Source: a virus. From it: a stretch of 30,043 bases of DNA. Below are positions 11,249-29,132 of this stretch, in pieces. The notes under the pieces were generated by a model. The model had not been told where the DNA came from. It did no database searches and saw nothing but the letters and a program-made list of their open reading frames with translations. Made by a program: the position numbers and the translations under genes. Each line of letters starts with the position of its first letter. Position 1 is the stretch's first letter. The DNA lies in IMG/VR virus record IMGVR_UViG_3300042528_000450, positions 1-30,043 of that record. One strand, given 5' to 3'.

Positions 11249-11521
11249 ATAGGGGTATTTTTTTGTATGTGATCGCATATAGTCTCGCAATGTATGCGAT
11301 AGGATATATATAGGGGATAGATAATTGGGTGGATTGGAATTGTGTTGGATGGTATTGGATAACGTGGAATTGGTTTGGATTTATAAAAATACCCACCCCC
11401 CCTCTCTTTTTGGGTTTATGTTAGTCTAGTCGGATTTTAATTAACCCCACCCCCTTATGGTGTTCATGTGAACACTACGCGACCGCGTAAATAAAACGCG
11501 AAAAAAAAAGAGAAAATACCC
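11249..11521. other. Non-coding region with phased repeats and hairpins
   Basis: No supported gene. It contains: a hairpin ATCGCATA / TATGCGAT (about 11272-11300); six TTGGAT-like repeats at about 11325, 11334, 11345, 11355, 11365 and 11375, spaced 9-11 bp; outer complementary arms GGGGTATTTTT (about 11251) and AAAAATACCC (about 11385); and a near-palindrome GTGTTCATGTGAACAC at 11460-11475 followed by ACGCGACCGCGT. It lies just after the minus/plus transcription switch, so a control or replication site is plausible. Confidence 0.5.
11460..11475. promoter_or_regulatory. Operator-like palindrome 1
   Basis: GTGTTCATGTGAACAC: 7-bp arms around TG. First of eight related sites. Confidence 0.5.
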
Positions 11522-11549
11522 TTGTGCTTTTCGCGGGATCGGTTATACT
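11522..11549 (+). promoter_or_regulatory. Leaderless-type promoter
   Basis: TTGTGC, 16-bp spacer, TATACT; ATG 6 nt after the -10. Confidence 0.75.
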
Positions 11550-11555
11550 AACATC

Positions 11556-11795
11556 ATGAAAGAAAACCTTGCCCTTGGCTCCCTTGTCACCTTCGCCCCT
11601 TTCACCTCTGACATTCCTTTTGTGGGCCGTAAATCCACAATGCGTCAAGTTCCTAACGGCACCGCTGGCGAAGGCGTTGTCATTTATCAGTGGGTCATTT
11701 CCGCCCTTACCAGTGAGGGAATTGTCTTGCTTCCGATTGAAGACGCGAAGGCGCTTGTTGCCCGTCGCGCTCGTTTGGCGCTTGGCGTTGCCTAA
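11556..11795 (+). CDS. Small hypothetical protein, 79 aa
   Basis: Not recognised. Begins MKENLALGSLVTFAPFTSDI and ends in an Arg/Ala-rich helix. Possibly a small beta-barrel followed by a basic C-terminal helix that could contact nucleic acid. The start is fixed by the promoter directly in front of it, with no Shine-Dalgarno sequence. First gene of the small-gene array. Confidence 0.75.
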   Translation: MKENLALGSLVTFAPFTSDIPFVGRKSTMRQVPNGTAGEGVVIYQWVISALTSEGIVLLPIEDAKALVARRARLALGVA

Positions 11796-11837
11796 AACGC
11801 AAGCGCCTAGAGGGTCAAAAGAAAATCAAAAAAAGAC

Positions 11838-11865
11838 TTGATTCTCCCTTTTCTTCTTGTATATT
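11838..11865 (+). promoter_or_regulatory. Leaderless-type promoter
   Basis: TTGATT, 16-bp spacer, TATATT; ATG 5 nt after the -10. Confidence 0.75.
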
Positions 11866-11870
11866 CTCCC

Positions 11871-12035
11871 ATGAACATGATCAAAGAAATCGAAGACGCC
11901 GCTAAATTCGTTGCCGAATTCGGAGGTGATTTGGAAAAAATCGCGAAAGAAATCGCGGCGATGTTTCCCGGCCATTCATGGTCCTGTATCCGCCTTTCCC
12001 TTGAATATCAGGTTGACGAAATGGCGGCGCAATAA
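11871..12035 (+). CDS. Small helical protein, 54 aa (duplicated at 13099)
   Basis: Begins MNMIKEIEDAAKFVAEFGGD. A short amphipathic helix leads into AKEIAAMFPGHSWSCIRLSL, a pattern like a helix-turn-helix. Almost identical at nucleotide level to 13099-13263; only the last five codons and one silent change differ. A divergent third member is at 18856-19041. No known family recognised; a small DNA-binding or host-takeover protein is possible. Confidence 0.75.
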   Translation: MNMIKEIEDAAKFVAEFGGDLEKIAKEIAAMFPGHSWSCIRLSLEYQVDEMAAQ

Positions 12036-12048
12036 TCGAAAAAAACCC

Positions 12049-12076
12049 TTGCCTTCCCTCTTTAATCGCTTATACT
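12049..12076 (+). promoter_or_regulatory. Leaderless-type promoter
   Basis: TTGCCT, 16-bp spacer, TATACT; 6 nt to ATG. Preceded by a CGAAAAAAACCC A-tract, possibly an UP-like element. Confidence 0.75.
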
Positions 12077-12082
12077 TAGAAC

Positions 12083-12292
12083 ATGATCAACAAAGAGCAA
12101 ATCGAAAAAGCGGAACGTGTCAGCAAAAACGAATACGTTTTTGTTCAAACCCATTACGGGCAACAATACCTCTTTGAAGAGGTTTATAGAGACGACGTTT
12201 TGACGGTCTCGAATGAAGACGGTGAATTGTTTGATGTTCTTGTAAAAGACGTTGAACGTTTTATATGGTGGAATGATTCCGTTGCTGTCTGA
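12083..12292 (+). CDS. Small hypothetical protein, 69 aa
   Basis: Not recognised. A charged N-terminal helix precedes a beta-rich part (YVFVQTHYGQQYLFEEVYRD ... VLTVSNEDGELFDVLVKDVE). The layout resembles the products at 12380 and 13524: charged start, short strands, then an Asp-Val-Glu/Asp element, so these may be distant paralogues. Ends just before a GAAA-loop terminator hairpin. Confidence 0.75.
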   Translation: MINKEQIEKAERVSKNEYVFVQTHYGQQYLFEEVYRDDVLTVSNEDGELFDVLVKDVERFIWWNDSVAV

Positions 12293-12300
12293 AAAGAAAA

Positions 12301-12318
12301 GGGAGGCGAAAGCCTCCC
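12301..12318 (+). terminator. Stem-loop terminator candidate
   Basis: GGGAGGC, GAAA tetraloop, GCCTCCC: 7-bp perfect stem 8 nt after the stop codon, followed by TCCCCTTT rather than a long T-run. Confidence 0.6.
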
Positions 12319-12345
12319 TCCCCTTTAAATAATCGAAAAAAACCC

Positions 12346-12373
12346 TTGCGCTTTCCCTTAAATCCTTTATACT
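12346..12373 (+). promoter_or_regulatory. Leaderless-type promoter
   Basis: TTGCGC, 16-bp spacer, TATACT; 6 nt to ATG. Confidence 0.78.
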
Positions 12374-12379
12374 AACATC

Positions 12380-12616
12380 ATGAACAAAGAATACTACGAA
12401 AAGAAACTTTACACGCAATTCGTTCGTCCCTTTCCCTCTGAAGAGGGAAACTGGCAGATTGTCGGCACTGGCGAAATTGTCAAGGCAATTGAAATTGAAG
12501 ATATCCAAGGCTATCCCATGATGGTGGTTGAAACTGAAGAGGGCCAATTGCTCGATTGCGATTTTCAAGATGAAATCTTTGTCAAGCTTAACAAGAACAA
12601 TGAACCTCTTGTCTGA
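12380..12616 (+). CDS. Small hypothetical protein, 78 aa
   Basis: Not recognised. Begins MNKEYYEKKLYTQFVRPFPS. Acidic, with strands such as YPMMVVETEEGQLLDCDFQD resembling the gene at 12083 in overall plan. A stem-loop follows its stop codon. Confidence 0.75.
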   Translation: MNKEYYEKKLYTQFVRPFPSEEGNWQIVGTGEIVKAIEIEDIQGYPMMVVETEEGQLLDCDFQDEIFVKLNKNNEPLV

Positions 12617-12623
12617 AACGCGA

Positions 12624-12641
12624 AGGGAGGCAAAAGCCTCC
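12624..12641 (+). terminator. Stem-loop terminator candidate
   Basis: GGGAGGC, AAAA loop, GCCTCCC; same stem as at 12301-12318. Confidence 0.6.
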
Positions 12642-12670
12642 CTCCCCTTTAAATAATCGAAAAAAACCCC

Positions 12671-12698
12671 TTGCGCTTTTCTCTCAATCGCTTATTCA
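12671..12698 (+). promoter_or_regulatory. Orphan promoter
   Basis: TTGCGC, 16-bp spacer, TATTCA, with the usual A-tract upstream, but no start codon or gene follows. Probably left after loss of its gene, or it drives a non-coding transcript through the repeats. Confidence 0.45.
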
Positions 12699-12702
12699 AT
12701 AC

Positions 12703-12739
12703 TTCGCTATATAGCGATATAGCGATATAGCGATATAAT
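12703..12739. repeat. TATAGCGA iteron block 1
   Basis: Four overlapping ATATAGCG units, 9-bp period. The leading TCGCTATATAGCGA is itself a perfect palindrome. AT-rich and easily melted. Confidence 0.75.
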
Positions 12740-12755
12740 GCCGCTTTTTCATGTA

Positions 12756-12771
12756 ATGTTCATTTGAACAT
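12756..12771. promoter_or_regulatory. Operator-like palindrome 2
   Basis: ATGTTCATTTGAACAT. Confidence 0.55.
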
Positions 12772-12784
12772 CACGCCGCTTTTA

Positions 12785-12800
12785 GTGTTCAAATGAACAC
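12785..12800. promoter_or_regulatory. Operator-like palindrome 3
   Basis: GTGTTCAAATGAACAC, 29 bp (nearly three helical turns) from site 2. Confidence 0.55.
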
Positions 12801-12813
12801 TTTAAAAACCCTT

Positions 12814-12894
12814 CGTAACTCGTTGAAAATGAACGAGTTATGACGCAAAAACCCGGTCCCGCCGTCGTAACTCGTTGAAAATGAACGAGTTACG
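12814..12894. repeat. Alternating-arm hairpin unit 1
   Basis: Two hairpins, each of GTAACTCGTT-type and AACGAGTTA-type arms with a GAAAATG loop, around a core ending GCCGTC. The inner arms can also pair with each other. Confidence 0.8.
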
Positions 12895-12917
12895 GACATT
12901 TCTACTCAGAAAAAAAG

Positions 12918-12931
12918 TGTTCAATTGAACA
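12918..12931. promoter_or_regulatory. Operator-like palindrome 4
   Basis: TGTTCAATTGAACA, perfect. Confidence 0.55.
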
Positions 12932-12949
12932 TCATTTAAAAAGCAAAAC

Positions 12950-12993
12950 AATATAGCGATATAGCGATATAGATATATCGCGATATAGCGATA
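12950..12993. repeat. TATAGCGA iteron block 2
   Basis: ATATAGCGAT repeats interrupted by AGATATATCGCG, giving one inverted unit. Confidence 0.7.
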
Positions 12994-13004
12994 AACAAAA
13001 AAGG

Positions 13005-13018
13005 CGTTCAATTGAACA
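13005..13018. promoter_or_regulatory. Operator-like palindrome 5
   Basis: CGTTCAATTGAACA, 35 bp before the ATCAGG-containing promoter region of the duplicated gene. Confidence 0.5.
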
Positions 13019-13064
13019 TCACGCAATCGCGGAAACATTGATGAAAAAAAAAGCACAAAATAAC

Positions 13065-13092
13065 TTGCGTATCAGGTTTAAAGTGGTATCAT
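13065..13092 (+). promoter_or_regulatory. Leaderless-type promoter
   Basis: TTGCGT, 16-bp spacer, TATCAT; 6 nt to ATG. The upstream sequence differs from that of the duplicate gene at 11871, so the duplication did not carry its promoter. Confidence 0.7.
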
Positions 13093-13098
13093 TACAAC

Positions 13099-13263
13099 AT
13101 GAACATGATCAAAGAAATCGAAGACGCCGCTAAATTCGTTGCCGAATTCGGAGGTGATTTGGAAAAAATCGCGAAAGAAATCGCGGCGATGTTTCCCGGC
13201 CATTCGTGGTCCTGTATCCGCCTTTCCCTTGAATATCAGGTTGACGAAATCGAAGCGAAATAA
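13099..13263 (+). CDS. Small helical protein, 54 aa (duplicate of 11871)
   Basis: Begins MNMIKEIEDAAKF and ends DEIEAK instead of DEMAAQ. One silent substitution separates the first about 144 bp from 11871-12014, so the copy is very recent or under gene conversion. Both copies are intact and have their own promoter. Confidence 0.75.
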   Translation: MNMIKEIEDAAKFVAEFGGDLEKIAKEIAAMFPGHSWSCIRLSLEYQVDEIEAK

Positions 13264-13276
13264 TCGAAAAAAAGAC

Positions 13277-13304
13277 TTGAACTAAACCAAAAATAGGGTA
13301 AATT
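13277..13304 (+). promoter_or_regulatory. Leaderless-type promoter
   Basis: TTGAAC, 16-bp spacer, TAAATT; 6 nt to ATG. Confidence 0.7.
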
Positions 13305-13310
13305 AACATC

Positions 13311-13469
13311 ATGAAAGAAGAAAGCGGTTACATCTTGGCGATTAAAAAGGCAATGGACGTTGAACATGAAAGGCTTGGGGGGCGTTCGTTTTTTCGCGTG
13401 AAGCACGAAGGAAAGATCTTCTCCTTCTCTTGCGATGGTTCTCTTCTCAAATGGATTCTTTCCCTTTAA
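13311..13469 (+). CDS. Small hypothetical protein, 52 aa
   Basis: Begins MKEESGYILAIKKAMDVEHE. The segment FFRVKHEGKIFSFSCDGSLL resembles VVRVKDKEGKIFTFSFYAQL in the 53-aa product at 15941, so the two look like paralogues. Function unknown. Supported by the promoter at the correct distance from the ATG and by that similarity. Confidence 0.65.
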   Translation: MKEESGYILAIKKAMDVEHERLGGRSFFRVKHEGKIFSFSCDGSLLKWILSL

Positions 13470-13489
13470 GAAAAACACGAAAAAAACCC

Positions 13490-13517
13490 TTGCGCTTTTC
13501 TCTTAATCGCTTATACT
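13490..13517 (+). promoter_or_regulatory. Leaderless-type promoter
   Basis: TTGCGC, 16-bp spacer, TATACT; 6 nt to ATG; A-tract upstream. Confidence 0.78.
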
Positions 13518-13523
13518 TAAAAC

Positions 13524-13754
13524 ATGAAAGAACAAATCAAAAAAGACCTTCAAATCGCAATGGCTCAAACCCTTAAAGGGGAAGAAATTACTCTTCACAT
13601 TGCTGGCGAGTATTGGACACTTGAAAATCTTGTGGGACAAGATCACGTTTTAGTTTCCCGCAAAGGAAAGGAATATGTTATGGAAATTAAAGATATCGAC
13701 TTCATCGATTTGTTTTGTGAAAACTGGATTGAAAGACAAGTGAACCATTGCTAA
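13524..13754 (+). CDS. Small hypothetical protein, 76 aa
   Basis: Not recognised. Begins MKEQIKKDLQIAMAQTLKGE, an amphipathic helix, then short strands (VLVSRKGKEYVMEIKDIDFI). Plan similar to the genes at 12083 and 12380. Followed by a strong terminator hairpin. Confidence 0.75.
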   Translation: MKEQIKKDLQIAMAQTLKGEEITLHIAGEYWTLENLVGQDHVLVSRKGKEYVMEIKDIDFIDLFCENWIERQVNHC

Positions 13755-13777
13755 ATCTGGCAAATAAGAAAGGAAAA

Positions 13778-13803
13778 AGAGAGAAGGTTTTCACCTTCTC
13801 TCT
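13778..13803 (+). terminator. Rho-independent terminator candidate
   Basis: 11-bp perfect stem AGAGAGAAGGT / ACCTTCTCTCT with a TTTC loop, followed by TTTG. It marks the end of the gene cluster that began at 11522. Confidence 0.7.
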
Positions 13804-13811
13804 TTGTTAGT

Positions 13812-13845
13812 CAATACTTCGCTATATAGCGATATAGCGATATAA
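13812..13845. repeat. TATAGCGA iteron block 3
   Basis: Three ATATAGCG units preceded by AATACTTCGC exactly as in block 1, one unit shorter. Confidence 0.75.
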
Positions 13846-13862
13846 TGCCGCTTTTTCGTGTG

Positions 13863-13878
13863 ATGTTCATTTGAACAT
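13863..13878. promoter_or_regulatory. Operator-like palindrome 6
   Basis: ATGTTCATTTGAACAT, identical to site 2. Confidence 0.55.
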
Positions 13879-13892
13879 CACGCCGCTTTTAG

Positions 13893-13906
13893 TGTTCAAA
13901 TGAACA
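13893..13906. promoter_or_regulatory. Operator-like palindrome 7
   Basis: TGTTCAAATGAACA. Confidence 0.55.
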
Positions 13907-13920
13907 GTTTAAAAACCCTT

Positions 13921-14001
13921 CGTAAGTCATTGAAAAAGAACGAGTTACGACGGCTCGCCCCCGTCGCGCCGTCGTAACTCGTTGAAAAAGAACGAGTTAC
14001 A
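13921..14001. repeat. Alternating-arm hairpin unit 2
   Basis: The inner arms AACGAGTTACGACGGC and GCCGTCGTAACTCGTT are perfectly complementary over 16 bp around a GC-rich loop. This is the clearest example of the alternative central stem. Confidence 0.85.
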
Positions 14002-14047
14002 ACGCAATCAATTCAAGATTCGTGCCAATGTCAACACTTTTTTTGGG

Positions 14048-14061
14048 TGTTCAAATGAACA
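14048..14061. promoter_or_regulatory. Operator-like palindrome 8
   Basis: TGTTCAAATGAACA, 36 bp before the -35 of the next promoter. Confidence 0.55.
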
Positions 14062-14096
14062 TGGCGCAATCATGGAAAAGAAAAGGAAATAATTAC

Positions 14097-14125
14097 TTGC
14101 GCCTTTCTTTTTTTTATGTTATCTT
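14097..14125 (+). promoter_or_regulatory. Leaderless-type promoter
   Basis: TTGCGC, 17-bp spacer, TATCTT; 5 nt to the first ATG. Confidence 0.7.
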
Positions 14126-14130
14126 TGTTC

Positions 14131-14226
14131 ATGATGAAAGACCTGTTTGATCTTGCCCTTGCTTTTGTTGTTGCTTGTTTTGTTATCGTTGGCATTGCAT
14201 GGTTCGCCCATGCTGTTTGTCATTGA
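14131..14226 (+). CDS. Tiny single-pass membrane peptide, 31 aa
   Basis: Begins MMKDLFDLALAFVVACFVIV and ends in AWFAHAVCH. Residues about 6-26 form one transmembrane helix. It has its own promoter at the standard distance and the next promoter follows its stop, which makes a random ORF unlikely. A membrane-active early peptide or antiholin-like regulator is possible. Confidence 0.6.
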   Translation: MMKDLFDLALAFVVACFVIVGIAWFAHAVCH

Positions 14227-14245
14227 AAAACACGAAAAAAAACCC

Positions 14246-14273
14246 TTGCATTAAATCGAATTACCCTTATACT
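14246..14273 (+). promoter_or_regulatory. Leaderless-type promoter
   Basis: TTGCAT, 16-bp spacer, TATACT; 6 nt to ATG; A-tract upstream. Confidence 0.78.
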
Positions 14274-14279
14274 AACATC

Positions 14280-14429
14280 ATGACAGTCAAAGAACTCCAA
14301 CTCGCCCTTTCCATCTTCGAATCCGACTCCAGCAAGGACACGAAGGTTGTCCTCCTCATCGATGGAAAGGAGGTTGAAATCAATTCAATCTACCTCTCTT
14401 CCGGGGTTGTCGAAATTGTTGGGGAATAA
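14280..14429 (+). CDS. Small hypothetical protein, 49 aa
   Basis: Begins MTVKELQLALSIFESDSSKD. A helix is followed by a beta hairpin (TKVVLLIDGKEVEINSIYLS). This helix-strand layout occurs in several small phage proteins annotated only as hypothetical. Start fixed by the promoter. Confidence 0.7.
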   Translation: MTVKELQLALSIFESDSSKDTKVVLLIDGKEVEINSIYLSSGVVEIVGE

Positions 14430-14434
14430 TTCCC

Positions 14435-14462
14435 TTGCTTCTTTTCTTTAATCGCTTAAAAT
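14435..14462 (+). promoter_or_regulatory. Promoter with short leader
   Basis: TTGCTT, 16-bp spacer, TAAAAT; 17 nt to ATG, so a leader of about 11 nt without a Shine-Dalgarno sequence. Confidence 0.6.
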
Positions 14463-14479
14463 ATCTTCAATAAATCAAA

Positions 14480-14641
14480 ATGAGCAGAACAAAAAAGAAA
14501 GACTATCCTAGAAAATACGATTCTAAACGTTTCGATAAAACTTGCCGAAACAATGGCTCCTGTTCTTACTGTAGAAACAATCGCCTTCATAATACCCATA
14601 AAGAAGAACAAAGGTCGGTTGATCAATTAAAAGACGAGTAA
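14480..14641 (+). CDS. Basic Cys-rich small protein, 53 aa
   Basis: Begins MSRTKKKDYPRKYDSKRFDK. The core TCRNNGSCSYCRNNRLH has three Cys (C-x5-C-x2-C) plus a His, probably a small metal-binding motif. I recall similar CRNxGSCxYC small proteins in other phages, but no function is known to me. Strongly basic at the N-terminus, so nucleic acid or ribosome binding is possible. The TAA stop lies in the left arm of hairpin unit 3. Confidence 0.65.
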   Translation: MSRTKKKDYPRKYDSKRFDKTCRNNGSCSYCRNNRLHNTHKEEQRSVDQLKDE

Positions 14642-14717
14642 CTCGTTGAAAATGAAAGAGTTACGACGGCTCGCCCCGGTCCCGCCGTTGTAACTCGTTG
14701 AAAATGAAGGACTTACG
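14638..14717. repeat. Alternating-arm hairpin unit 3
   Basis: The left arm begins inside the stop codon of the gene at 14480. Outer hairpins have GAAAATG loops. Confidence 0.8.
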
Positions 14718-14740
14718 TTGCAAGGCCATTTGCGTTGTCA

Positions 14741-14878
14741 CTACGTTATTTTAGGCGTTCGAATGATTTTCGCGCCTACGTTATTTTAGGCGTTCGAATG
14801 ATTTTCGCGCCTACGTTATTTTAGGCGTTCGAATGATTTTCGCGCCTACGTTATTTTAGGCGTTCGAATGATTTTCGC
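14741..14878. repeat. 35-bp tandem repeat, four copies
   Basis: Unit CTACGTTATTTTAGGCGTTC followed by GAATGATTTTCGCGC, starting at 14741, 14776, 14811 and 14846; the copies are identical except at the end of the last. TAGGCG and CGCCTA flank the repeat junctions and can pair. GGCGTTCGAATGA resembles half of the nearby TGTTCA palindromes. An ACGCAATCGCGC box follows at 14885. Confidence 0.9.
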
Positions 14879-14919
14879 ATCCATACGCAATCGCGCTATA
14901 AAAAACACCATTCAATTAC

Positions 14920-14947
14920 TTGCATCTTTTCTTTCTTCTGTTATCTT
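14920..14947 (+). promoter_or_regulatory. Leaderless-type promoter
   Basis: TTGCAT, 16-bp spacer, TATCTT; 6 nt to ATG. Confidence 0.75.
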
Positions 14948-14953
14948 TGATAC

Positions 14954-15127
14954 ATGACTGAAGAACAAGCATACGACCACGGTTTTTACGGCACCCTCAC
15001 CTTGGAGCAGATGCCCGACGACGAGATCCTTCTCGCGGCCTTTGAGCAGGGCAAGCAGGACGAACGCGACGTTCGCAACATCGAAATGGGTTACGAGTCT
15101 CGCATGAGAGACCTTTACGGCCATTGA
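14954..15127 (+). CDS. Small acidic protein, 57 aa
   Basis: Begins MTEEQAYDHGFYGTLTLEQM; mostly helical and acidic (DDEILLAAFEQGKQDERDVR). Not recognised. Its codons are more GC-rich than those of its neighbours, as in the gene at 22615, which may reflect a different origin. Flanked by the 35-bp repeat with its GCGC box upstream and hairpin unit 4 downstream. Confidence 0.7.
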   Translation: MTEEQAYDHGFYGTLTLEQMPDDEILLAAFEQGKQDERDVRNIEMGYESRMRDLYGH

Positions 15128-15138
15128 TGGCTTTTCCC

Positions 15139-15219
15139 TGTAACTCCTTGGTTTTCAAGGGGTTACGGGGGCGCGGCCCCCGCGCAGCGGCGTAACTCGT
15201 TGAGCATTAACGACTTACA
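15139..15219. repeat. Alternating-arm hairpin unit 4
   Basis: The first hairpin is GTAACTCCTTG / CAAGGGGTTAC; the core GGGGGCGCGGCCCCC is palindromic; an ACGCGATTGCGCC box follows at 15234. Confidence 0.8.
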
Positions 15220-15269
15220 AACAATTTGCCATCACGCGATTGCGCCATAAAGAAAGAAGAAAAAGGTTG

Positions 15270-15297
15270 TTGCATCTTTTCTTTCATGCAGTATCTT
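15270..15297 (+). promoter_or_regulatory. Leaderless-type promoter
   Basis: TTGCAT, 16-bp spacer, TATCTT; 5 nt to ATG. Confidence 0.75.
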
Positions 15298-15302
15298 TAA
15301 AC

Positions 15303-15476
15303 ATGAACAAAGAAAACGAAATCAAAGAAGAAGGTCAAGCGATCCTTGACGGAATCAAGTGGGTCGCGATTGTTGAGATCGACAACAAGGAAGTTCTCGT
15401 CTGCGACCAATACGGGGATGAAAAGTGGGTCAACATTAATCGGCTCGATCCGATCATGACTGTTCCCCTTAAGTAA
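15303..15476 (+). CDS. Small hypothetical protein, 57 aa
   Basis: Begins MNKENEIKEEGQAILDGIKW, a helix followed by strands WVAIVEIDNKEVLVCDQYGD and KWVNINRLDP. Possibly a small SH3-like barrel. First gene of a three-gene operon linked by TAATG overlaps. Confidence 0.72.
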   Translation: MNKENEIKEEGQAILDGIKWVAIVEIDNKEVLVCDQYGDEKWVNINRLDPIMTVPLK

Positions 15477-15649
15477 TGAACCTACAAGTTCAAATCCTCG
15501 AAAACAACGTTTTTGTTGTTGATAGTGAGTGGAGCGATTTAAATGACGCCTTGCAGCGAGCCTCCTTTTGCCTTGACTTTATCAGCGATCATGTTAAGAT
15601 TATGAAAGAAGGAAAAACGATAATTGAAGAAAAAGAAACAAATAGTTAA
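15476..15649 (+). CDS. Small hypothetical protein, 57 aa
   Basis: Begins MNLQVQILENNVFVVDSEWS. Not recognised. The ATG shares a base with the preceding TAA (TAATG), and its own TAA overlaps the next ATG in the same way, so translation by re-initiation is likely. Confidence 0.65.
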   Translation: MNLQVQILENNVFVVDSEWSDLNDALQRASFCLDFISDHVKIMKEGKTIIEEKETNS

Positions 15650-15792
15650 TGAAAAAAGAAACTCAGTGGTATTACTTCTGGAACTCTCTTATGGGTTGCG
15701 TTTGGTATAGTGAATACGAAGAGGCTGTTGCCGCTCGCCATGCTTACGCGATGGCAGGTCATAAGGTTGGGCCAGTGTTGTGCAAGAGCTAA
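15649..15792 (+). CDS. Small hypothetical protein, 47 aa
   Basis: Begins MKKETQWYYFWNSLMGCVWY; aromatic-rich N-terminus, then a helix EYEEAVAARHAYAMAGHK. Coupled by TAATG to the gene before. Similar short Tyr/Trp-rich products are common in phages but without function. Confidence 0.62.
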   Translation: MKKETQWYYFWNSLMGCVWYSEYEEAVAARHAYAMAGHKVGPVLCKS

Positions 15793-15800
15793 AAAACCCG

Positions 15801-15883
15801 CGTAAGTCATTGAGTCTCAACGACTTATGACGGCGCGGCCCCCGCGCAGCGTCGTAACTCGTTGAAATACAACGACTTACAAC
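15801..15883. repeat. Alternating-arm hairpin unit 5
   Basis: Arms GTAAGTCATTGAG / CTCAACGACTTA and GTAACTCGTTG / CAACGACTTAC; core GGCGCGGCCCCCGCGC. Confidence 0.8.
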
Positions 15884-15907
15884 GTGAAAAAAAGATGAAA
15901 TAATCCC

Positions 15908-15935
15908 TTGCACCTTGGGAAAAATCGCTTATCTT
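15908..15935 (+). promoter_or_regulatory. Leaderless-type promoter
   Basis: TTGCAC, 16-bp spacer, TATCTT; 5 nt to ATG. Confidence 0.75.
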
Positions 15936-15940
15936 TATCT

Positions 15941-16102
15941 ATGAACGAACATCATGTGACTCTCGCGCAAAACGCTGGCTTCGAAGCTTGGACCGAAAAG
16001 TTTATGAACCGCACGGTTGTCCGCGTCAAGGACAAAGAAGGGAAGATTTTCACCTTTTCTTTTTATGCTCAACTTGCTTCTTTTCTTAAACAAAACGCTT
16101 GA
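15941..16102 (+). CDS. Small hypothetical protein, 53 aa
   Basis: Begins MNEHHVTLAQNAGFEAWTEK. Paralogue-like to the product at 13311 through the shared RVK-x-EGKIF-x-FS element near the C-terminus. Function unknown. Confidence 0.7.
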   Translation: MNEHHVTLAQNAGFEAWTEKFMNRTVVRVKDKEGKIFTFSFYAQLASFLKQNA

Positions 16103-16131
16103 TTTTTTCCGCAAATAACCGATTGTTCCCT

Positions 16132-16284
16132 ATGAACGAAATGAACCTCGCCGAACTGAACGAATACATCGATTACCTCGACTCGCTCGACTACCCCGAG
16201 CAGGTCGATCCCAACGAGCGTTGGGAGACGCTGGCGGAAGAACACGAAAACATTCAATATGGCATGGCCGTAATGGAGGCTTGA
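16132..16284 (+). CDS. Small acidic helical protein, 50 aa
   Basis: Begins MNEMNLAELNEYIDYLDSLD; Leu/Tyr/Asp heptad-like pattern, then a Glu-rich tail. No convincing -10 box at the standard distance; probably cotranscribed from the promoter at 15908. The 3' end carries GGAGG, which serves the next gene. Confidence 0.65.
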   Translation: MNEMNLAELNEYIDYLDSLDYPEQVDPNERWETLAEEHENIQYGMAVMEA

Positions 16285-16285
16285 T

Positions 16286-16549
16286 ATGATCACTTACAAC
16301 TTTGTTTGTCGCCGTGTGATGCTTGGCGATGTTGAACACTCCACGAAAACAACCTTTCTTGGCAAGGGTTGGGGTGTTCGAATCTTTACCAATGGAGAAA
16401 TCAATTCCGAGGCTTTCGTTACGGAAAAAGAGGAAATTGGAACCGCTATTCGTTCCATGTTGAGGATGGAAGATAAGTGTGGAAACTATTCTAAAATGGC
16501 CCACAACTCAAGAATGAGGCCGGGAATTAAAGCAAATAAAACAAAATGA
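16286..16549 (+). CDS. Small hypothetical protein, 87 aa
   Basis: Begins MITYNFVCRRVMLGDVEHST. Mixed alpha/beta, with a basic tail. Unusual here in having a strong Shine-Dalgarno sequence: GGAGG at 16276-16280, 5-6 nt before the ATG. This fits an internal operon position where no leaderless start is possible. Overlaps the next gene by ATGA. Confidence 0.72.
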   Translation: MITYNFVCRRVMLGDVEHSTKTTFLGKGWGVRIFTNGEINSEAFVTEKEEIGTAIRSMLRMEDKCGNYSKMAHNSRMRPGIKANKTK

Positions 16550-16758
16550 AAATCGAACTTGATCACATCCAAATAACAAAAATGTATATCACGGCTTGCG
16601 GCCCATCCACCTTGCCAAGTATTGCCCACGAAATCTTTACCCAAGTAAACTTTGCCACAAAAGAAAACAGCGTCTTTCTTGCTGAAGAAGCCATTGCCAA
16701 TGGAATGAATAATGGCTGGCTCGAAAAATACGACGAACAATCCTATTGCATTGCCTGA
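16546..16758 (+). CDS. Small hypothetical protein, 70 aa (winged-helix-like)
   Basis: Begins MKIELDHIQITKMYITACGP. The order helix, TLPSIAHEIFTQVN, then FLAEEAIANGMNNGWLEKYD is reminiscent of a small winged-helix fold, but there is no clear motif. Coupled by ATGA to the gene before and ending just before the endolysin gene. Confidence 0.68.
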   Translation: MKIELDHIQITKMYITACGPSTLPSIAHEIFTQVNFATKENSVFLAEEAIANGMNNGWLEKYDEQSYCIA

Positions 16759-16759
16759 T

Positions 16760-17311
16760 ATGAAATACCTCCTTTTCTTTCTTGCCCTTGCTTTTCTTGT
16801 ATATCAAGAATTGAAAACCCAAGATTCTCCCGCTGTAGAATATATCCCGCAGCAAAGAATCTTTGCCCCGATTAATCCTATTGAAAAGAAGGAAAGTGAT
16901 GAACTTCTTTCTTTAATTAAATCCTTTGAAGGGTTTAGCCCCACGGTTTACAAATGCCAAGCGGGGGTTGATACGATTGGTTACGGCTTTACTGATCCAA
17001 AGATTGTTCAAAAGGGATTTATCACAGAACAAGAGGCTTCCCTTCTTCTTAAAGATGTTGTAAACAAACATTCTTCTTATGTTGATTCTCTGGTAAAGGT
17101 TGAACTAACAAAAGAACAAAAGATTGCCCTTACTTCTTTTTCTTTTAACTGTGGAAAGGAAAACCTTAAGAACATCACGGCAAGAATTAACAAGGGTAAA
17201 ATTGAAGAGGCAGCAAAGGCTATCCTTCTTTATGTAAAGGCCAATGGCGAAGTATCCAAAGGCTTGCAAAAACGTAGAAAGATGGAATACGAATTGTTTA
17301 TAAGTGCCTAA
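16760..17311 (+). CDS. GH24 endolysin with N-terminal membrane anchor
   Basis: 183 aa from the ATG at 16760. Residues 1-16 (MKYLLFFLALAFLVYQ) are hydrophobic without a clear cleavage site, suggesting a signal-anchor or SAR-type export signal. The GH24 lysozyme domain begins at IKSFEGFSPTVYK, and VDTIGYGFTDP matches the family signature. The catalytic spacing E-x8-[DC]-x5-T gives E57, C66 and T72, so Cys replaces the Asp of T4 lysozyme, as in phage P1 Lyz. The only other Cys is C131. The enzyme cleaves peptidoglycan at lysis. The gene overlaps or abuts small genes upstream and ends in hairpin unit 6. Confidence 0.93.
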   Translation: MKYLLFFLALAFLVYQELKTQDSPAVEYIPQQRIFAPINPIEKKESDELLSLIKSFEGFSPTVYKCQAGVDTIGYGFTDPKIVQKGFITEQEASLLLKDVVNKHSSYVDSLVKVELTKEQKIALTSFSFNCGKENLKNITARINKGKIEEAAKAILLYVKANGEVSKGLQKRRKMEYELFISA

Positions 17312-17379
17312 GAATCAGCGACTTACGAGGTCGCGCAGGGGCCGCGCCGTCGTAACTCCCTGTAAATCAACGACTTACA
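17302..17379. repeat. Alternating-arm hairpin unit 6
   Basis: The left arm is degenerate and uses the last codons and stop of the endolysin gene; right hairpin GTAACTCCCTG ... CAACGACTTAC. An ACGCGATTGCGCC box follows at 17384. Confidence 0.7.
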
Positions 17380-17407
17380 AAATACGCGATTGCGCCAGAT
17401 AAATAGT

Positions 17408-17435
17408 TTGCGGGTTTTGTTTTTTGAGTTACATT
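17408..17435 (+). promoter_or_regulatory. Leaderless-type promoter
   Basis: TTGCGG, 16-bp spacer, TACATT; 5 nt to ATG. Confidence 0.7.
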
Positions 17436-17440
17436 ACCTT

Positions 17441-17770
17441 ATGAAAACGCCACTTGCGACAAAAACGATAGATCGACTCAAAGAAGAAAGGATCTTTGCT
17501 CAAGAATACATTATCAAAGCCATTATCGCTTCAGACAAGGCAGAAGGAGAAAGAAAGGAAGGTATTCTTGATCTTATCCGCGAATTTTCAAACTCTTTAA
17601 TTGAGATCGAAAGAGAAATCAACAAACGAAAAATTGACAATTTTGGTAATTGGATTATTCAAGAATTGATTGACGGTCCCAATCTCACAATTGAACATAT
17701 TCAAGATGCTGCTCTCGATATGGGTCTTGTTGATTGGGATGACAAAAATCAACGCATCATTGAAAAATAA
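17441..17770 (+). CDS. Helical hypothetical protein, 109 aa
   Basis: Begins MKTPLATKTIDRLKEERIFA. Residues about 10-75 are a charged heptad-like coiled coil; the last 35 residues form an acidic globular part (GLVDWDDKNQRIIE). Not recognised. Start chosen at the ATG directly behind the promoter. Confidence 0.72.
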   Translation: MKTPLATKTIDRLKEERIFAQEYIIKAIIASDKAEGERKEGILDLIREFSNSLIEIEREINKRKIDNFGNWIIQELIDGPNLTIEHIQDAALDMGLVDWDDKNQRIIEK

Positions 17771-17772
17771 CC

Positions 17773-17800
17773 TTGACAAACACCGAAAACCTGCTAAATT
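17773..17800 (+). promoter_or_regulatory. Leaderless-type promoter
   Basis: Consensus TTGACA, 16-bp spacer, TAAATT; 7 nt to ATG. Confidence 0.75.
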
Positions 17801-17807
17801 TACCACT

Positions 17808-18263
17808 ATGAACCTACTGAAAGAAACCATCGCCGTTTTTAATGATCATAACCTCGTCCCCCACAACATCCTTTTTATCGGTTGTGAGGAAACTGGACAC
17901 CGTTGTTCTTGGGAACAGTTCCAAACTCTTGCGGATCGTGAATACGACAACGGTTACGGTGGTGCAGAGGTTTTGACCGATATTGTGATTGTCTTTGTTG
18001 ACGGAACAAAGCTTTCCCGTCGCGAATACGGTGGTTTTGAGTGGTGGAATGTCCAAAAGCCCTTTGTGATGCCAGAAGAAACCAAGGAAATCGATTCTCT
18101 TTTTGTTGAGAATTACAATTATCGTTTTCAAGATCTTAAAGAAGAAGAGGGTTCTAGTGATTACTGGAACGATATCGCAAGCGATGGGGAAGCCGATAGC
18201 GATGCCCTCGCGAGTGCTGGTTTTGGGAGCAACGAGGACTATGGGTTCTTTGGTGATGAGTGA
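17808..18263 (+). CDS. Acidic hypothetical protein, 151 aa
   Basis: Begins MNLLKETIAVFNDHNLVPHN. Residues 1-95 look globular (ILFIGCEETGHRCSWEQFQ, DIVIVFVDGTKLSRREYGGF); residues about 105-151 are an acidic Ser/Asp/Gly-rich tail, possibly disordered. Acidic tails of this type occur in DNA-mimic or host-inhibitor proteins, but that is only a possibility. Followed 8 nt later by tRNA-Ile. Confidence 0.75.
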   Translation: MNLLKETIAVFNDHNLVPHNILFIGCEETGHRCSWEQFQTLADREYDNGYGGAEVLTDIVIVFVDGTKLSRREYGGFEWWNVQKPFVMPEETKEIDSLFVENYNYRFQDLKEEEGSSDYWNDIASDGEADSDALASAGFGSNEDYGFFGDE

Positions 18264-18440: not shown

Positions 18441-18522
18441 GTCGTAAGTTGTTGAGCCTCAATGACTTACGACGACGCGCCCCGCCCGTTTCGTCGTAAC
18501 TCTCTCATCTTCAACGACTTAA
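18441..18522. repeat. Alternating-arm hairpin unit 7
   Basis: The central stem TTACGACGA / TCGTCGTAA is perfect; the second hairpin is weak. An ACGCAATCGCGCC box follows at 18528. Confidence 0.8.
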
Positions 18523-18563
18523 ACCATACGCAATCGCGCCATATAAAATAAAGAAGAAAAGAG

Positions 18564-18591
18564 TTGAACCTTCCCTTTCTTCTGTTACATT
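18564..18591 (+). promoter_or_regulatory. Leaderless-type promoter
   Basis: TTGAAC, 16-bp spacer, TACATT; 6 nt to ATG. Confidence 0.75.
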
Positions 18592-18597
18592 ACCTAC

Positions 18598-18825
18598 ATG
18601 AACGAAGAAGATTACTCTTTGCTGTTGGAAGAACAAAACGTTCTTGAAAGCTCTCTCAAACAAAAACTGTTTGATGACTTTGTTTCGTCTTGCAAAATGT
18701 ATCTTTACAAATATGGTTCTCCTAAACTCGTTTGCGATATGATCGGTTGCACTGGTCCTTTTTACATGTTTTCCACTAAAAAAGATCTTTTGGAAGCCCT
18801 TGTTTTTGTTGAAGAAAACCGTTGA
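18598..18825 (+). CDS. Small helical protein, 75 aa
   Basis: Begins MNEEDYSLLLEEQNVLESSL. Mostly helical, four Cys-free helices around KYGSPKLVCDMIGCTG. Not recognised. Its TGA lies in the -35 box of the next promoter. Confidence 0.72.
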   Translation: MNEEDYSLLLEEQNVLESSLKQKLFDDFVSSCKMYLYKYGSPKLVCDMIGCTGPFYMFSTKKDLLEALVFVEENR

Positions 18826-19470: not shown

Positions 19471-19695
19471 ATGGAAAGAAAAAGACACAAACAAAAGCCT
19501 CTCCGCAAATTGTTTAACAAGTTTCGATACATGATCGAAGACATTAAACATAGCAGACAAAACGCAGACGCTGCTTACTCTGCTAGATACATTCTGGAAG
19601 ACCTCCAGAATAAAGAGGGAATTGAAAAGCTTTCGGAAATTACGGGATTGCCCGAAGGCGTCATTTCCGCAGCCCTTAAAAACATCGTTCGCTAA
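19471..19695 (+). CDS. Small basic helical protein, 74 aa
   Basis: Begins MERKRHKQKPLRKLFNKFRY, a strongly basic N-terminus, then helices ending in LSEITGLPEGVISAALKNIV, which resembles a helix-turn-helix or UBA-like pair. Could bind nucleic acid. Its stop codon lies at the edge of hairpin unit 8. Confidence 0.7.
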   Translation: MERKRHKQKPLRKLFNKFRYMIEDIKHSRQNADAAYSARYILEDLQNKEGIEKLSEITGLPEGVISAALKNIVR

Positions 19696-19770
19696 GTTGC
19701 TGATAGTCAACGACTTACGAGGGCGCGGCCCCGCCGCCGTGTCGTAACTCCCTAAGTTTCAACGACTTAG
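19692..19770. repeat. Alternating-arm hairpin unit 8
   Basis: Starts in the stop codon of the gene before; core GGGCGCGGCCCCGCC. An ACGCAATCGCGCC box follows at 19776. Confidence 0.8.
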
Positions 19771-19811
19771 GCCATACGCAATCGCGCCATAAGAAAAGAA
19801 GAAGAATGTTG

Positions 19812-19839
19812 TTGCACCTTTCTTTTTCTGTGGTAAATT
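19812..19839 (+). promoter_or_regulatory. Promoter with long leader
   Basis: TTGCAC, 16-bp spacer, TAAATT; ATG 47 nt after the -10. The leader is A/C-rich and lacks a Shine-Dalgarno sequence. Confidence 0.7.
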
Positions 19840-19886
19840 ACCCTTAGAAAGAAACAAAGAAACTACTTCTAATACAATCTTAAATT

Positions 19887-20048
19887 ATGCAAGCAATCAC
19901 CAAAGAACAAATCTTGGCAATTTTGAAGTCTTTCGAAAAAGAGATGGAGGGATACGGCTACTTTAGTTCCAATCCCGGCGTTTCTACGGACGACTTTGAA
20001 GACATCGCAGATGAGATCTTGAAAAAGATTTCTGAAAAAGATTCTTGA
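19887..20048 (+). CDS. Small acidic protein, 53 aa
   Basis: Begins MQAITKEQILAILKSFEKEM. Helix, GYGYFSSNPGVSTDDF loop, helix. Not recognised. One of three genes with a long A-rich leader. Its TGA lies within the next promoter. Confidence 0.68.
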   Translation: MQAITKEQILAILKSFEKEMEGYGYFSSNPGVSTDDFEDIADEILKKISEKDS

Positions 20049-20657: not shown

Positions 20658-20740
20658 CGTAACTCTTTGAGTTTCAAGGAGTTGCGCGGTCGCGCCCCGC
20701 CCCGCGCGTCGTAACTCGTTCAAAATAAACGACTTACAAC
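20658..20740. repeat. Alternating-arm hairpin unit 9
   Basis: Arms GTAACTCTTTGA / TCAAGGAGTT with compensating changes; a GGCGCAATCGCGC box follows at 20752. Confidence 0.78.
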
Positions 20741-20788
20741 GAAACAAACATGGCGCAATCGCGCTATGTAAATTAAAGAAGAAAGGTG

Positions 20789-20816
20789 TTGCATTCCTGC
20801 CAAAATCGGTTACATT
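20789..20816 (+). promoter_or_regulatory. Promoter with long leader
   Basis: TTGCAT, 16-bp spacer, TACATT; ATG 50 nt downstream after an AAC/AAA-rich leader without a Shine-Dalgarno sequence. Confidence 0.7.
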
Positions 20817-20866
20817 ACTCTTGTCGAAAGTAACAAACAAAAGACAACAAAACCAAAAAAAACAAA

Positions 20867-21846: not shown

Positions 21847-21929
21847 CGTAACTTGTTGAATGATAACGGGTTACGAGGGTTCGCCCCGGCCCCTCAGTCG
21901 TAACTCATTAACAGTCAACGTCTTACAAC
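21847..21929. repeat. Alternating-arm hairpin unit 10
   Basis: Arms GTAACTTGTTGA / TAACGGGTTAC; core GAGGGTTCGCCCCGGCCCCTC; the second hairpin is weak. Confidence 0.75.
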
Positions 21930-22183: not shown

Positions 22184-22267
22184 TGTAACTCGTTGAAAAA
22201 CAATGGGTTACGCAGGACCGCCCCCCCCGCCGCGTCGTAACTCGTTGAAAACCAACGACTTACGACG
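22184..22267. repeat. Alternating-arm hairpin unit 11
   Basis: Arms GTAACTCGTTG / CAATGGGTTAC and GTAACTCGTTG / CAACGACTTAC; C-rich core. A CAAGAACCATGCCAA box follows at about 22278. Confidence 0.8.
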
Positions 22268-22340
22268 ATTGCTTTTCAAGAACCATGCCAAGTCCCCTTT
22301 CTTTTTCCACCATAGCGTAAAAAATAGATTCACCTTTTTT

Positions 22341-23621: not shown

Positions 23622-23635
23622 AACAAAACAACAAG

Positions 23636-23669
23636 AGAGGCGCGGGTTACACTCGCGCCTCTTTCTTTT
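23636..23669 (+). terminator. Rho-independent terminator
   Basis: AGAGGCGCG / CGCGCCTCT perfect 9-bp stem, 9-nt loop, followed by TTCTTTT. The most canonical terminator in the window. Confidence 0.85.
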
Positions 23670-23684
23670 GTCTGATAAAAGATT

Positions 23685-23769
23685 GTCGTAACTTGTTGAC
23701 GCTCAACGAGTTACGACGGCGCGGCCCCGCCGCCGCGTCGTAACTCCTTCACTATCAACGACTTACAAC
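23685..23769. repeat. Alternating-arm hairpin unit 12
   Basis: The first hairpin CGTAACTTGTTGA / TCAACGAGTTACG has 13 pairs (one G-T) and loop CGC. The inner-arm stem GAGTTACGACG / CGTCGTAACTC is perfect. A CAAGAACCATGCCAA box follows at about 23780. Confidence 0.85.
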
Positions 23770-23815
23770 ACAAGCAATTCAAGAACCATGCCAACCATTC
23801 CTTGTTTTTTTTCGC

Positions 23816-24076: not shown

Positions 24077-24772
24077 ATGAAACTACTGAACGAAGGAAAC
24101 TATAAAACGAAGAAGGGAGAATCCCTTGGTTGGAAAACCTACGGAATCCACCTTGCCCCCTCTCGCGTGTCTGGCTTCAATACCTGCCAGAATGCAACGG
24201 CAGGTTGTGCCGCCGCCTGTCTCAATACGGCAGGACGCGGGGCAATGTCCAACGTGCAAAAAGCACGGGTTGAGAAAACCCTTTTCTTCTTTAAGAAGCG
24301 CGAAGAATTCCTTTCGAATCTTCGAAAGGAAATCGCGGCGGCAATTAAGTCTTGCGAAAAATCGGGGCTTAAACCCTGCTTTCGTTTGAACCTTACTTCC
24401 GACATTCCCTTTCACAAGTTTGGAATCATGGAAGAGTTTTCCAACGTGCAATTTTACGATTACACGAAGGATTATAAAAGGGCTTTGCAATACATGCATG
24501 GCGAAATGCCGAAAAACTACCATCTGACTTTCTCCCGCGCCGAATCGGAAGACAATCAACAACAAGCCAAGTCTCTTCTTTCTATGGGAATGAACATCGC
24601 CGCCGTCTTTCGTAAATCGCTCCCCGCTACTTGGAACGGTTTCAACGTCGTGAATGGAGACGAAACGGACCTTCGGTTTCTTGATCCGAATGGCGTTGTT
24701 GTCGGGCTTGTCGAGAAAGGCAAGGCAAAAAAAGATACCAGTGGATTCGTAATCGAAAGCCATCATGGATGA
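24077..24772 (+). CDS. Gp88-like protein, 231 aa
   Basis: The start MKLLNEGNYKTKKGESLGWK, the Cys cluster FNTCQNATAGCAAACLNTAG (C-x6-C-x3-C, about 37-48) and KPCFRLNLTSDI, then VQFYDYTKDYKRAL, match the phage Gene product 88 family first named in mycobacteriophages. Its biochemical function is not established; the three clustered Cys suggest an Fe-S or zinc site, reminiscent of but not identical to a radical-SAM signature. The final helix-strand part is more variable. The start follows the promoter by 6 nt. A tiny ORF overlaps its stop. Confidence 0.82.
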   Translation: MKLLNEGNYKTKKGESLGWKTYGIHLAPSRVSGFNTCQNATAGCAAACLNTAGRGAMSNVQKARVEKTLFFFKKREEFLSNLRKEIAAAIKSCEKSGLKPCFRLNLTSDIPFHKFGIMEEFSNVQFYDYTKDYKRALQYMHGEMPKNYHLTFSRAESEDNQQQAKSLLSMGMNIAAVFRKSLPATWNGFNVVNGDETDLRFLDPNGVVVGLVEKGKAKKDTSGFVIESHHG

Positions 24773-25275: not shown

Positions 25276-25356
25276 TGCAACTCGTTGAGAATCAACGAGT
25301 TACGACGGCGCGGCGGGGGCGAAGCGTCGTAAGTCGCTGAAAATAAACGACTTACG
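25276..25356. repeat. Alternating-arm hairpin unit 13
   Basis: AACTCGTTGA / TCAACGAGTT with loop GAA, core GACGGCGCGGCGGGGGC, then GTAAGTCG / CGACTTAC. It sits between converging gene clusters, where a two-way terminator would be useful. Confidence 0.82.
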
Positions 25357-27001: not shown

Positions 27002-27185
27002 ATAAGTCGTTGGGAGAAAGCGACTTACGACGGTATGGAAAAAAACGTCGTCGTAACTCGTTAAACATCAACGACTTACGACGCTACGCCCCAGCCCCGC
27101 CCTCATAACTCCCTCATACTCAAGGACTTACAACACAAAAAAATCCATGCTGTAGTAACTCGTTTAGGATCAAGGACTTACATCA
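27002..27185. repeat. Extended hairpin array, unit 14
   Basis: Four stem-loops in a row (about 27002-27030, 27049-27083, 27103-27133, 27153-27183), built of the same GTAACTCGTT / AACGACTTAC arms. It is the only unit lying between two minus-strand genes. The rest of 26961-27240 holds no gene. Confidence 0.78.
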
Positions 27186-28073: not shown

Positions 28074-28151
28074 TTAAAACAAGAGAGAGATTAACCAAGC
28101 AAAGGTCACCCCAATGGCAACCCCAATATAGAAATGGTATGTGCAGGTCAT
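28074..28151 (-). CDS. Tiny single-pass membrane peptide, 25 aa
   Basis: Begins MTCTYHFYIGVAIGVTFAWL and ends ISLLF. The ATG overlaps the stop of the RuvB-like gene (ATGA), and its TAA is 1 nt from the ATG of the glycosylase, so it fits exactly between two real genes. One transmembrane helix from about residue 7 to 25. The exact tiling makes a genuine gene more likely than its length suggests. Confidence 0.6.
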   Translation of the reverse strand: MTCTYHFYIGVAIGVTFAWLISLLF

Positions 28152-29098
28152 GCCAACTGCCTCATGAGGTCTCTGCCCTTGTTGGTAAGGAAACGCTTAC
28201 CATCAATGTCCATCAAACCATTGCCCAAAAGGTGCTTCTCATACTTCTTCTGGATGACGGAGCGGGAGTAACCCGTAGCCGCACTCAGGGCTTGAAGAGA
28301 AATGGGACCAGTTGCCTTGTGCAGCACCTTAAGGACACGAACCTCCGCAGGAGAAAGGCCGAATTCGGAAACGCCCATGTCTCCCTTGAAGCTATTCCAA
28401 ACATCAGGAGTAAGGAAGGTTTTATTCATGGCAGTCATGTAATCCTTCAACTCTTCCGCCTTCGCAACAACGTCGCGAGGATGACCACGGAAAGAAGAGA
28501 TGACAGTATCTTTCATGGAATCAGGCACCATGATGGTCTTGGGCAGATTCATCTTGAAGATCTCAAACAATTCATGATGATCATACTTGGCCAAGGAAAT
28601 CTCGGTCAGACGATCAAGGAGGGGTTCGGGTAACTTCTGCGGATCAGTGGTCGCAAGGATGATACCCATCTGGGTAAAGTCAAAGATCAATTCCATTTCT
28701 CCCATCTCGCGATCATTGTAGATGACGCGGCGAATAGGGTTCTTGTCCCGCTCAAGAATGGTAAGAAGATAAGTGAGAATCTGACGACCAGCACCAGTTT
28801 CCGCCAGTTCGTGAACCTCATCAATGAAGAGAATAGCCTTTTCATTTCTCCAAGTAGGATAAACTTGGGTAGCAAAGACATTCATGCTCTTGATGCTGGC
28901 AGCATTGATCTCGATGATCGGGGGAATGCTACCGTCAGGACGCTTAAGAGAGCGACGGAACTCGCGGACAAGTTTGGTCTTGCCTCCTCCACGTTCACCT
29001 TCAAAAAGAAGGAATGGGAGTCTGCCACTGTTGGCATAAGCTTGAGAGAAGACGGTGAGTTTTGCTTTAGCTTGATGTTGACCAATGATTTCGTTCAT
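28148..29098 (-). CDS. RuvB-like Holliday junction AAA+ ATPase
   Basis: 316 aa from the ATG at 29098. Walker A is GERGGGKT (34-41), Walker B is ILFIDEVHEL (89-98), sensor 1 is ILATTDPQ, and the arginine-finger region is LLDRLTEISL. The C-terminal 75 residues (LSPAEVRVLKVLHKATGPIS ... GYSRSVIQKKYEKHLLGNGL) form the winged helix of RuvB. RuvB drives branch migration as hexamers with RuvA; no RuvA or RuvC is seen here, but the ERCC4-type nuclease at 6616 could resolve junctions. Transcribed from a consensus promoter 6 nt before the ATG, giving a leaderless mRNA for a large protein. Confidence 0.9.
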   Translation of the reverse strand: MNEIIGQHQAKAKLTVFSQAYANSGRLPFLLFEGERGGGKTKLVREFRRSLKRPDGSIPPIIEINAASIKSMNVFATQVYPTWRNEKAILFIDEVHELAETGAGRQILTYLLTILERDKNPIRRVIYNDREMGEMELIFDFTQMGIILATTDPQKLPEPLLDRLTEISLAKYDHHELFEIFKMNLPKTIMVPDSMKDTVISSFRGHPRDVVAKAEELKDYMTAMNKTFLTPDVWNSFKGDMGVSEFGLSPAEVRVLKVLHKATGPISLQALSAATGYSRSVIQKKYEKHLLGNGLMDIDGKRFLTNKGRDLMRQLA

Positions 29099-29104
29099 GG
29101 CGGA

Positions 29105-29132
29105 AATATAATGCATTCTGTGGATTTGTCAA
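29105..29132 (-). promoter_or_regulatory. Leaderless-type promoter
   Basis: Minus strand: consensus TTGACA, 16-bp spacer, TATATT; 6 nt to ATG at 29098. The distance excludes the in-frame ATG at 29116, which would fall inside the promoter. Confidence 0.85.

Follow-up and report, generated by a model that had tools for sequence, protein, structure and literature searches.

Several phage groups are known to carry dispersed intergenic repeats, with functions that are mostly open. T4-type phages are said to carry PeSL (promoter early-stem-loop) cassettes, reportedly described by Arbiol and colleagues in 2010, in which a hairpin and then an early promoter stand before small genes. The Cluster O mycobacteriophages (Corndog) contain lineage-wide 17-bp inverted repeats of unknown function, single dyads with invariant arms, many of which lie in short intergenic gaps and about a third inside genes; occasional deletions through recombination of copies and some leaderless promoters have also been described (PMC4351075). 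In Cluster A mycobacteriophages, stoperators are single, asymmetric sites whose orientation follows transcription (described in PMC4351075), and the class I and class II intergenic repeats of halovirus HF2, found in early-middle regions, are themselves promoters (PMC8707807). We analyzed a paired-hairpin element of uncultured phages for which we found no description in the openly accessible literature.

The window, that is, the whole stretch of DNA analyzed here, is a virus record of 30,043 bases with a GC content of 40.7%. Minus-strand genes for the terminase large subunit, a sigma-factor-like protein and PhoH lie on the left, followed by a central block of small plus-strand genes, among them an endolysin gene (16760-17311); the right end is again occupied by minus-strand genes, one of which encodes a RuvB homolog (genes were called with a home-made caller). 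We found no close isolated phage: the best terminase matches among the isolates listed reach 22-28% identity and cover only part of the protein, the block has no DNA match among isolated phages, and two of the hairpin units searched against them gave no convincing match, only chance-like hits of 20-26 bp. Uncultured viral relatives were recovered through the terminase and the proteins encoded at 24077-24772 and 28148-29116, with terminase identities of 88-100% at best, then 59-62%. An Rfam search returned tRNAs only. A related hairpin in a Flavobacteriaceae bin (L085) was rejected as host evidence, since this contig has phage-type genes (clamp-loader-like, Mom-like) and is therefore probably a phage contig misbinned as a bacterium, which carries no host information. 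The LexA motif of Verrucomicrobia was likewise considered as a host clue and set aside. As a separate observation, the region 11461-17904 contains eight TGTTC-N4-GAACA dyads versus about 0.03 expected; these dyads, possibly repressor (LexA-like) operators, are also present in the relatives G018, L009 and L010 and absent from the other lineages checked.

The hairpin search gave 30 matches in the window and none in its shuffle, and in 14 pairs the hairpins lie exactly 52 bp apart from start to start. In each hairpin, positions 2-3 and their TT counterpart were fixed by the search pattern, so that their invariance is not evidence. The window carries 13 two-hairpin units of 77 bp each and one four-hairpin array, all read on the plus strand. 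A unit consists of two palindromic dyads with similar half-sites (TAAsTCnnTnA); in the one at 18445-18521, the first hairpin (H1, 18445-18469) and the second (H2, 18497-18521) enclose a centre at 18470-18496. Further units lie at 12816-12892 and 13923-13999 (both with a spacing of 52), at 14639-14715 and 19693-19769, where the first TAA serves as stop codon for ORF 14480-14641 and gene 19471-19695, respectively, at 15141-15217 (orthologous to L123:7641-7715), at 17301-17377, overlapping the end of the endolysin gene, and at 20660-20736. Those at 15803-15879, 21849-21925 and 22186-22262 lack the box described below; the first is followed by a leaderless promoter before the ATG at 15941, and the second has a TTGACA promoter 32 bp downstream. 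The unit at 23689-23765 is preceded by a canonical intrinsic terminator (23634-23664), the one at 25278-25354 sits between convergent genes, and the four-hairpin array (27003-27180, start-to-start distances of 51, 52 and 50) between minus-strand genes. Like stoperators, these are dispersed sites for which an effect on transcription can be proposed, but stoperators are single and asymmetric, whereas the units are paired palindromes. Box-less units show a second downstream motif, approximately AAGCnATTCAAGAnCCATGCCAA, at 13999-14040, 22262-22300 and 23765-23800, which is found in G018 too. Two pairs of matching segments, 11870-12051/13098-13279 (96% identical) and 12714-12893/13821-14000 (91%), look like a duplicated operon with its unit, the middle genes of which have since been replaced.

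The preliminary description had read 18441-18597 as a cassette of hairpins, operator box, A/G-rich spacer, leaderless promoter and ATG, and all of these parts are present. Just after the unit comes the box TACGCAATCGCGCC (18527-18540, plus strand), 35 bp before the -35 hexamer, followed by the A/G-rich spacer (18541-18563) and a plus-strand promoter, TTGAAC-16-TACATT (18564-18591), 6 nt from the leaderless ATG at 18598. The same order had been claimed for 14638-14953, 15139-15302, 17302-17440, 19692-19886 and 20658-20866, and it was found in six of the six listed cassettes. The box, which follows six units, is a near-palindrome, ACGC(A/G)AT(C/T)GCGC (GGCGCAATCGCGC in one case), and occurs in either orientation (ACGCAATCGCGC or ACGCGATTGCGC): with plus-strand coordinates, it lies at 14885-14897 and 19776-19788, in the other orientation at 15234-15246 (ACGCGATTGCGCC) and 17384-17396, and as GGCGCAATCGCGCT at 20752-20765. 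The corresponding promoters (14920-14947, 19812-19839, 15270-15297, 17408-17435 and 20789-20816) are sigma-70-like, as is that of the first cassette, and the hexamer spacing is 16 in all six. From the box start to the -35 hexamer there are 34-35 bp in five of the six cassettes and 23 in the sixth, and the box follows the unit at 7 or 17 bp in five cassettes and at 170 bp in one, where a 35-bp tandem repeat (14741-14880) intervenes. Contig L010 ends at about this repeat, probably through an assembly break. Leaderless starts, claimed for the cassettes in general, hold for four of the six (ATGs at 14954, 15303, 17441 and 18598, 5-6 nt after the -10 box), but the genes starting at 19887 and 20867 have leaders of about 41 and 45 nt, respectively, as read in the sequence from the expected transcription start to the ATG. 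In the block as a whole, a promoter lies 5-7 nt ahead of the gene start in 18 of 34 plus-strand genes, versus 1.4% of random positions, and only one of the 34 shows a Shine-Dalgarno-like motif. Some block promoters stand without a unit. The distances between units and promoters (up to 60) carry a phase signal (p about 0.002, orthologous duplicates included), and an exact 19-nt box pattern, searched in viral contigs, gave no match. The likeness to PeSL cassettes lies in a stem-loop and a promoter before small genes, "early" being inferred here from the promoter type, while two dyads at fixed spacing, a box and leaderless starts set our cassettes apart from the PeSL ones. As in HF2, repeated intergenic elements are kept in related viruses, but in HF2 the repeats are the promoters, whereas our cassettes carry the promoter as a distinct part downstream of the unit.

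Dozens of related contigs contain the hairpin pair, and the unit is present throughout a broad group of uncultured phages with terminases down to 59% identity. In the relatives, too, it is concentrated in blocks: the hairpins are confined to 64.1-73.8 kb in G019 (9.7 kb of 134 kb), to 3.1-16.8 kb in G018 and to 0.1-2.1 kb in G008, while in G022 and G023 copies are found near both ends of the record and would form one block each if these genomes are circular; a reversed-pattern control in whole records gave 0 to 1 hits. None of 140 distinct units lies inside a called gene. Among the 129 with neighbours, the flanking genes are tandem for 110, convergent for 11 and apparently divergent for 8, a group that mostly reflects weak ORF calls, and three window units overlap the upstream stop codon. 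The repeats of Cluster O are similar in being dispersed, lineage-wide palindromes, often intergenic and with some leaderless promoters around, but the pairing of the dyads, the variable arms and the avoidance of called genes differ, and the units do not qualify as Cluster O-type repeats.

The distance between the two hairpins behaves as a genome-specific ruler. It is 52 in 17 of the 19 units of the window and L010, 50 in 16 of the 17 units of G018 and also in most other relatives, and 58 in all 47 units of five records of the 58-bp group. The L094-L109 group has 58 in every unit, with the exception of L095 (50 in eight of eight units) and L108 (50). Orthologous units of the window and G018 have arms that are 80% identical, versus 75.5% for non-orthologous pairs, and differ in length at 11 of the 11 places compared (one G018 unit serving two window units). 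In the pair formed by 15141 and 7641 of L123, the two additional bases look like a further base pair of the GC-rich centre. In sequence, copies of one genome mostly diverge widely, with near-identical centres in several G018 units, and orthologous units retain individual features across relatives. This wide variation within a genome makes wholesale copying unlikely as the sole cause of the constant spacing, and the simplest inference from these comparisons is that a partner reads the distance between the hairpins.

Tentatively, and at somewhat less than even probability, we propose that the unit is a DNA-level boundary element separating the short transcription units of the small-gene block. 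We favour this reading because the unit sits at the junctions of transcription units, avoids genes, and combines a fixed dyad geometry with a fixed geometry of box and promoter where the box is present, in the order stop codon, two dyads at the genome-specific spacing, box in six cases, and, for most units, a sigma-70-like promoter. The paired dyads would be bound by a protein of the phage or the host, whose need to contact both together would fix their spacing, and the bound dyads would stop read-through from the preceding operon and/or set up the next promoter; polymerase block, DNA looping and hairpin extrusion are candidate modes of action. The main rival, which we consider less probable, is an element acting as RNA, in which the transcribed hairpins would end or protect the upstream mRNA, as a terminator without U-tract or as processing or stability hairpins. 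Such a role would explain why units abut stop codons and precede promoters, and it accords with their position at gene 3' ends (three on the upstream stop codon in the window), with their presence at convergent junctions and with folding z values between -3.2 and -6.1 in four units of the window. Covariation also speaks for it: 71 units of the 50-bp group show strong covariation in the centre stem (0 of 500 shuffles) and a weak signal in the two hairpins (18 and 37 of 500), and the strong signal of the centre counts against a boundary element, since simple protein sites would not require pairing. A long-rod folding, outer arm with outer arm, was rejected, its pairing and covariation score lying below all shuffles. 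If the RNA form were selected, G.U should outnumber A.C among the departures from pairing, yet the two are similar in the 50-bp group for H1 (50:45) and the centre (47:53), with only a mild excess in H2 (48:29, p = 0.04), and no excess exists in the window lineage (centre 9:12, H2 1:11). The 58-bp group departs from this pattern, with 21:4 in the centre and 19:3 in H2 (11 thinned sequences sharing ancestry) and a centre that forms a GACCCC-3-nt-GGGGTC hairpin (UUC, UAC, GAA or GUA triloop), often followed by T's; this would suit an RNA hairpin, so the rival may be right for that lineage. A canonical intrinsic terminator was rejected for the unit itself, as a hairpin with U-tract occurs in or just after only 9 of 139 units (1 of 16 in the window and L010), and 22 of the 139 have a separate canonical terminator within 130 nt upstream, versus 3 in shuffles. 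Nor does an RNA 3' element account for the fixed spacing. GNA-type DNA triloops in H1 and H2 are only slightly above expectation (0.36 versus 0.29 by composition). With strand-symmetric departures from pairing and no U-tracts, the unit of the window lineage seems to be an element of the DNA, not a terminator at the RNA level.

The homology of the repeated cassette had also been suggested to shuffle the small genes between copies, as in T4-type phages, and this holds for single events. Relatives with the same gene order and unrelated intergenic sequences were not seen; instead, the relatives differ in gene order and have units in common. Three unit-bounded differences of operon scale separate the window from G018: gene 14954 occupies another slot, together with its box and promoter and the unit that follows, G018 lacks the operon of three genes that stands between units 19693 and 20660, and G018 carries an additional unit-bounded operon at 11548-12401. 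For the second, the junction is resolved inside the cassette: the single G018 unit and box are nearer the first window copy (0.84 and 0.95 versus 0.76 and 0.53), and the following spacer, promoter and leader are nearer the second (0.91, 0.73 and 0.70 versus 0.67, 0.46 and 0.58). Likewise, L109 has one unit where L100 and L103 have two units enclosing genes for proteins of 103 and 68 aa. These events, to which the duplicated segments with genes and units (11870/13098 and 12714/13821) can be added, would fit a cassette in the PeSL sense, with units kept because their repeated homology shuffles small genes. Junctions do not map to cassettes as a rule, however. Among 50 breakpoints from 17 pairs of relatives, a count that replaced one of 6 points from one pair, 34% lie within 25 bp of gene starts (versus 10%, p = 2e-5), 32% near gene ends (versus 11%, p = 1.5e-4) and 16% near units (versus 11%, p = 0.20); these p values are approximate, as the points are ends of BLAST alignments and the pairs share sequences. 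Broken gene adjacencies are not significantly enriched at places with a unit between the genes (eight comparisons, Fisher p 0.06-1.0). Gene 18598 is absent from G018, where its promoter runs straight into the 18856 gene, with the join at the start codon, and the segment 26090-26928, with 97.4% identity to G018 compared with 74-78% in the blocks on either side, points to a recent exchange of three minus-strand genes with edges at about a start codon and a stop codon, not in units. Breakpoints here are not concentrated at the hairpins, a difference from PeSL cassettes, with which the single events of gene exchange at the cassette agree. Selection for future shuffling does not account for the fixed spacing either, and we consider it improbable that the units are kept for recombination. 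In a boundary element, the dispersed units of about 77 bp with box and promoter would serve as patches of homology that incidentally permit operon exchange.

Still less probable is a role as cruciform or tandem-hairpin DNA whose length is a genome-wide ruler and on which a Holliday-junction machine of the phage would act. The candidate enzyme is encoded at 28148-29116 (minus strand), a full-length RuvB homolog with RuvB_N and RuvB_C domains and matches to RuvB structures in the PDB, which scores 4.6e-19 against NCBIfam ruvB, below the equivalog cut-off, and is labelled clamp loader in PHROGs. Its distance to the block is about 1 kb in the window and G018 and 3 kb in G019, and the RuvB_C domain is also found in G018, G019, G022 (two) and G023. 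Were this reading true, it would couple boundary function, homogenisation of length and operon exchange. Finally, a selfish dispersed element of REPIN or MITE type moved by a transposase would fit the many dispersed palindromic copies of similar length and the near-identical centres of G018, but called genes are never interrupted, copies sit at orthologous places in relatives, and no Y1 transposase was detected in nine records (positive control; the records may be fragments), so that we regard this origin as very improbable and reject a REPIN/RAYT system. Integron attC cassettes were rejected as well, no tyrosine recombinase being found in the same number of records with the same control and the same proviso.

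With regard to gene turnover in these phages, whole operons have been swapped at units in a few events, which is not the main route; counted over the relatives, cassettes sometimes drive the exchange of whole operons, but gene edges matter more. Compared with the dispersed repeats of other phage groups, the unit stands out as a family-wide element with a measurable rule. Each genome keeps to one spacing, and between related phages nearly every copy has shifted to another, a pattern that suggests a partner acting in trans and that can be tested by moving one dyad.
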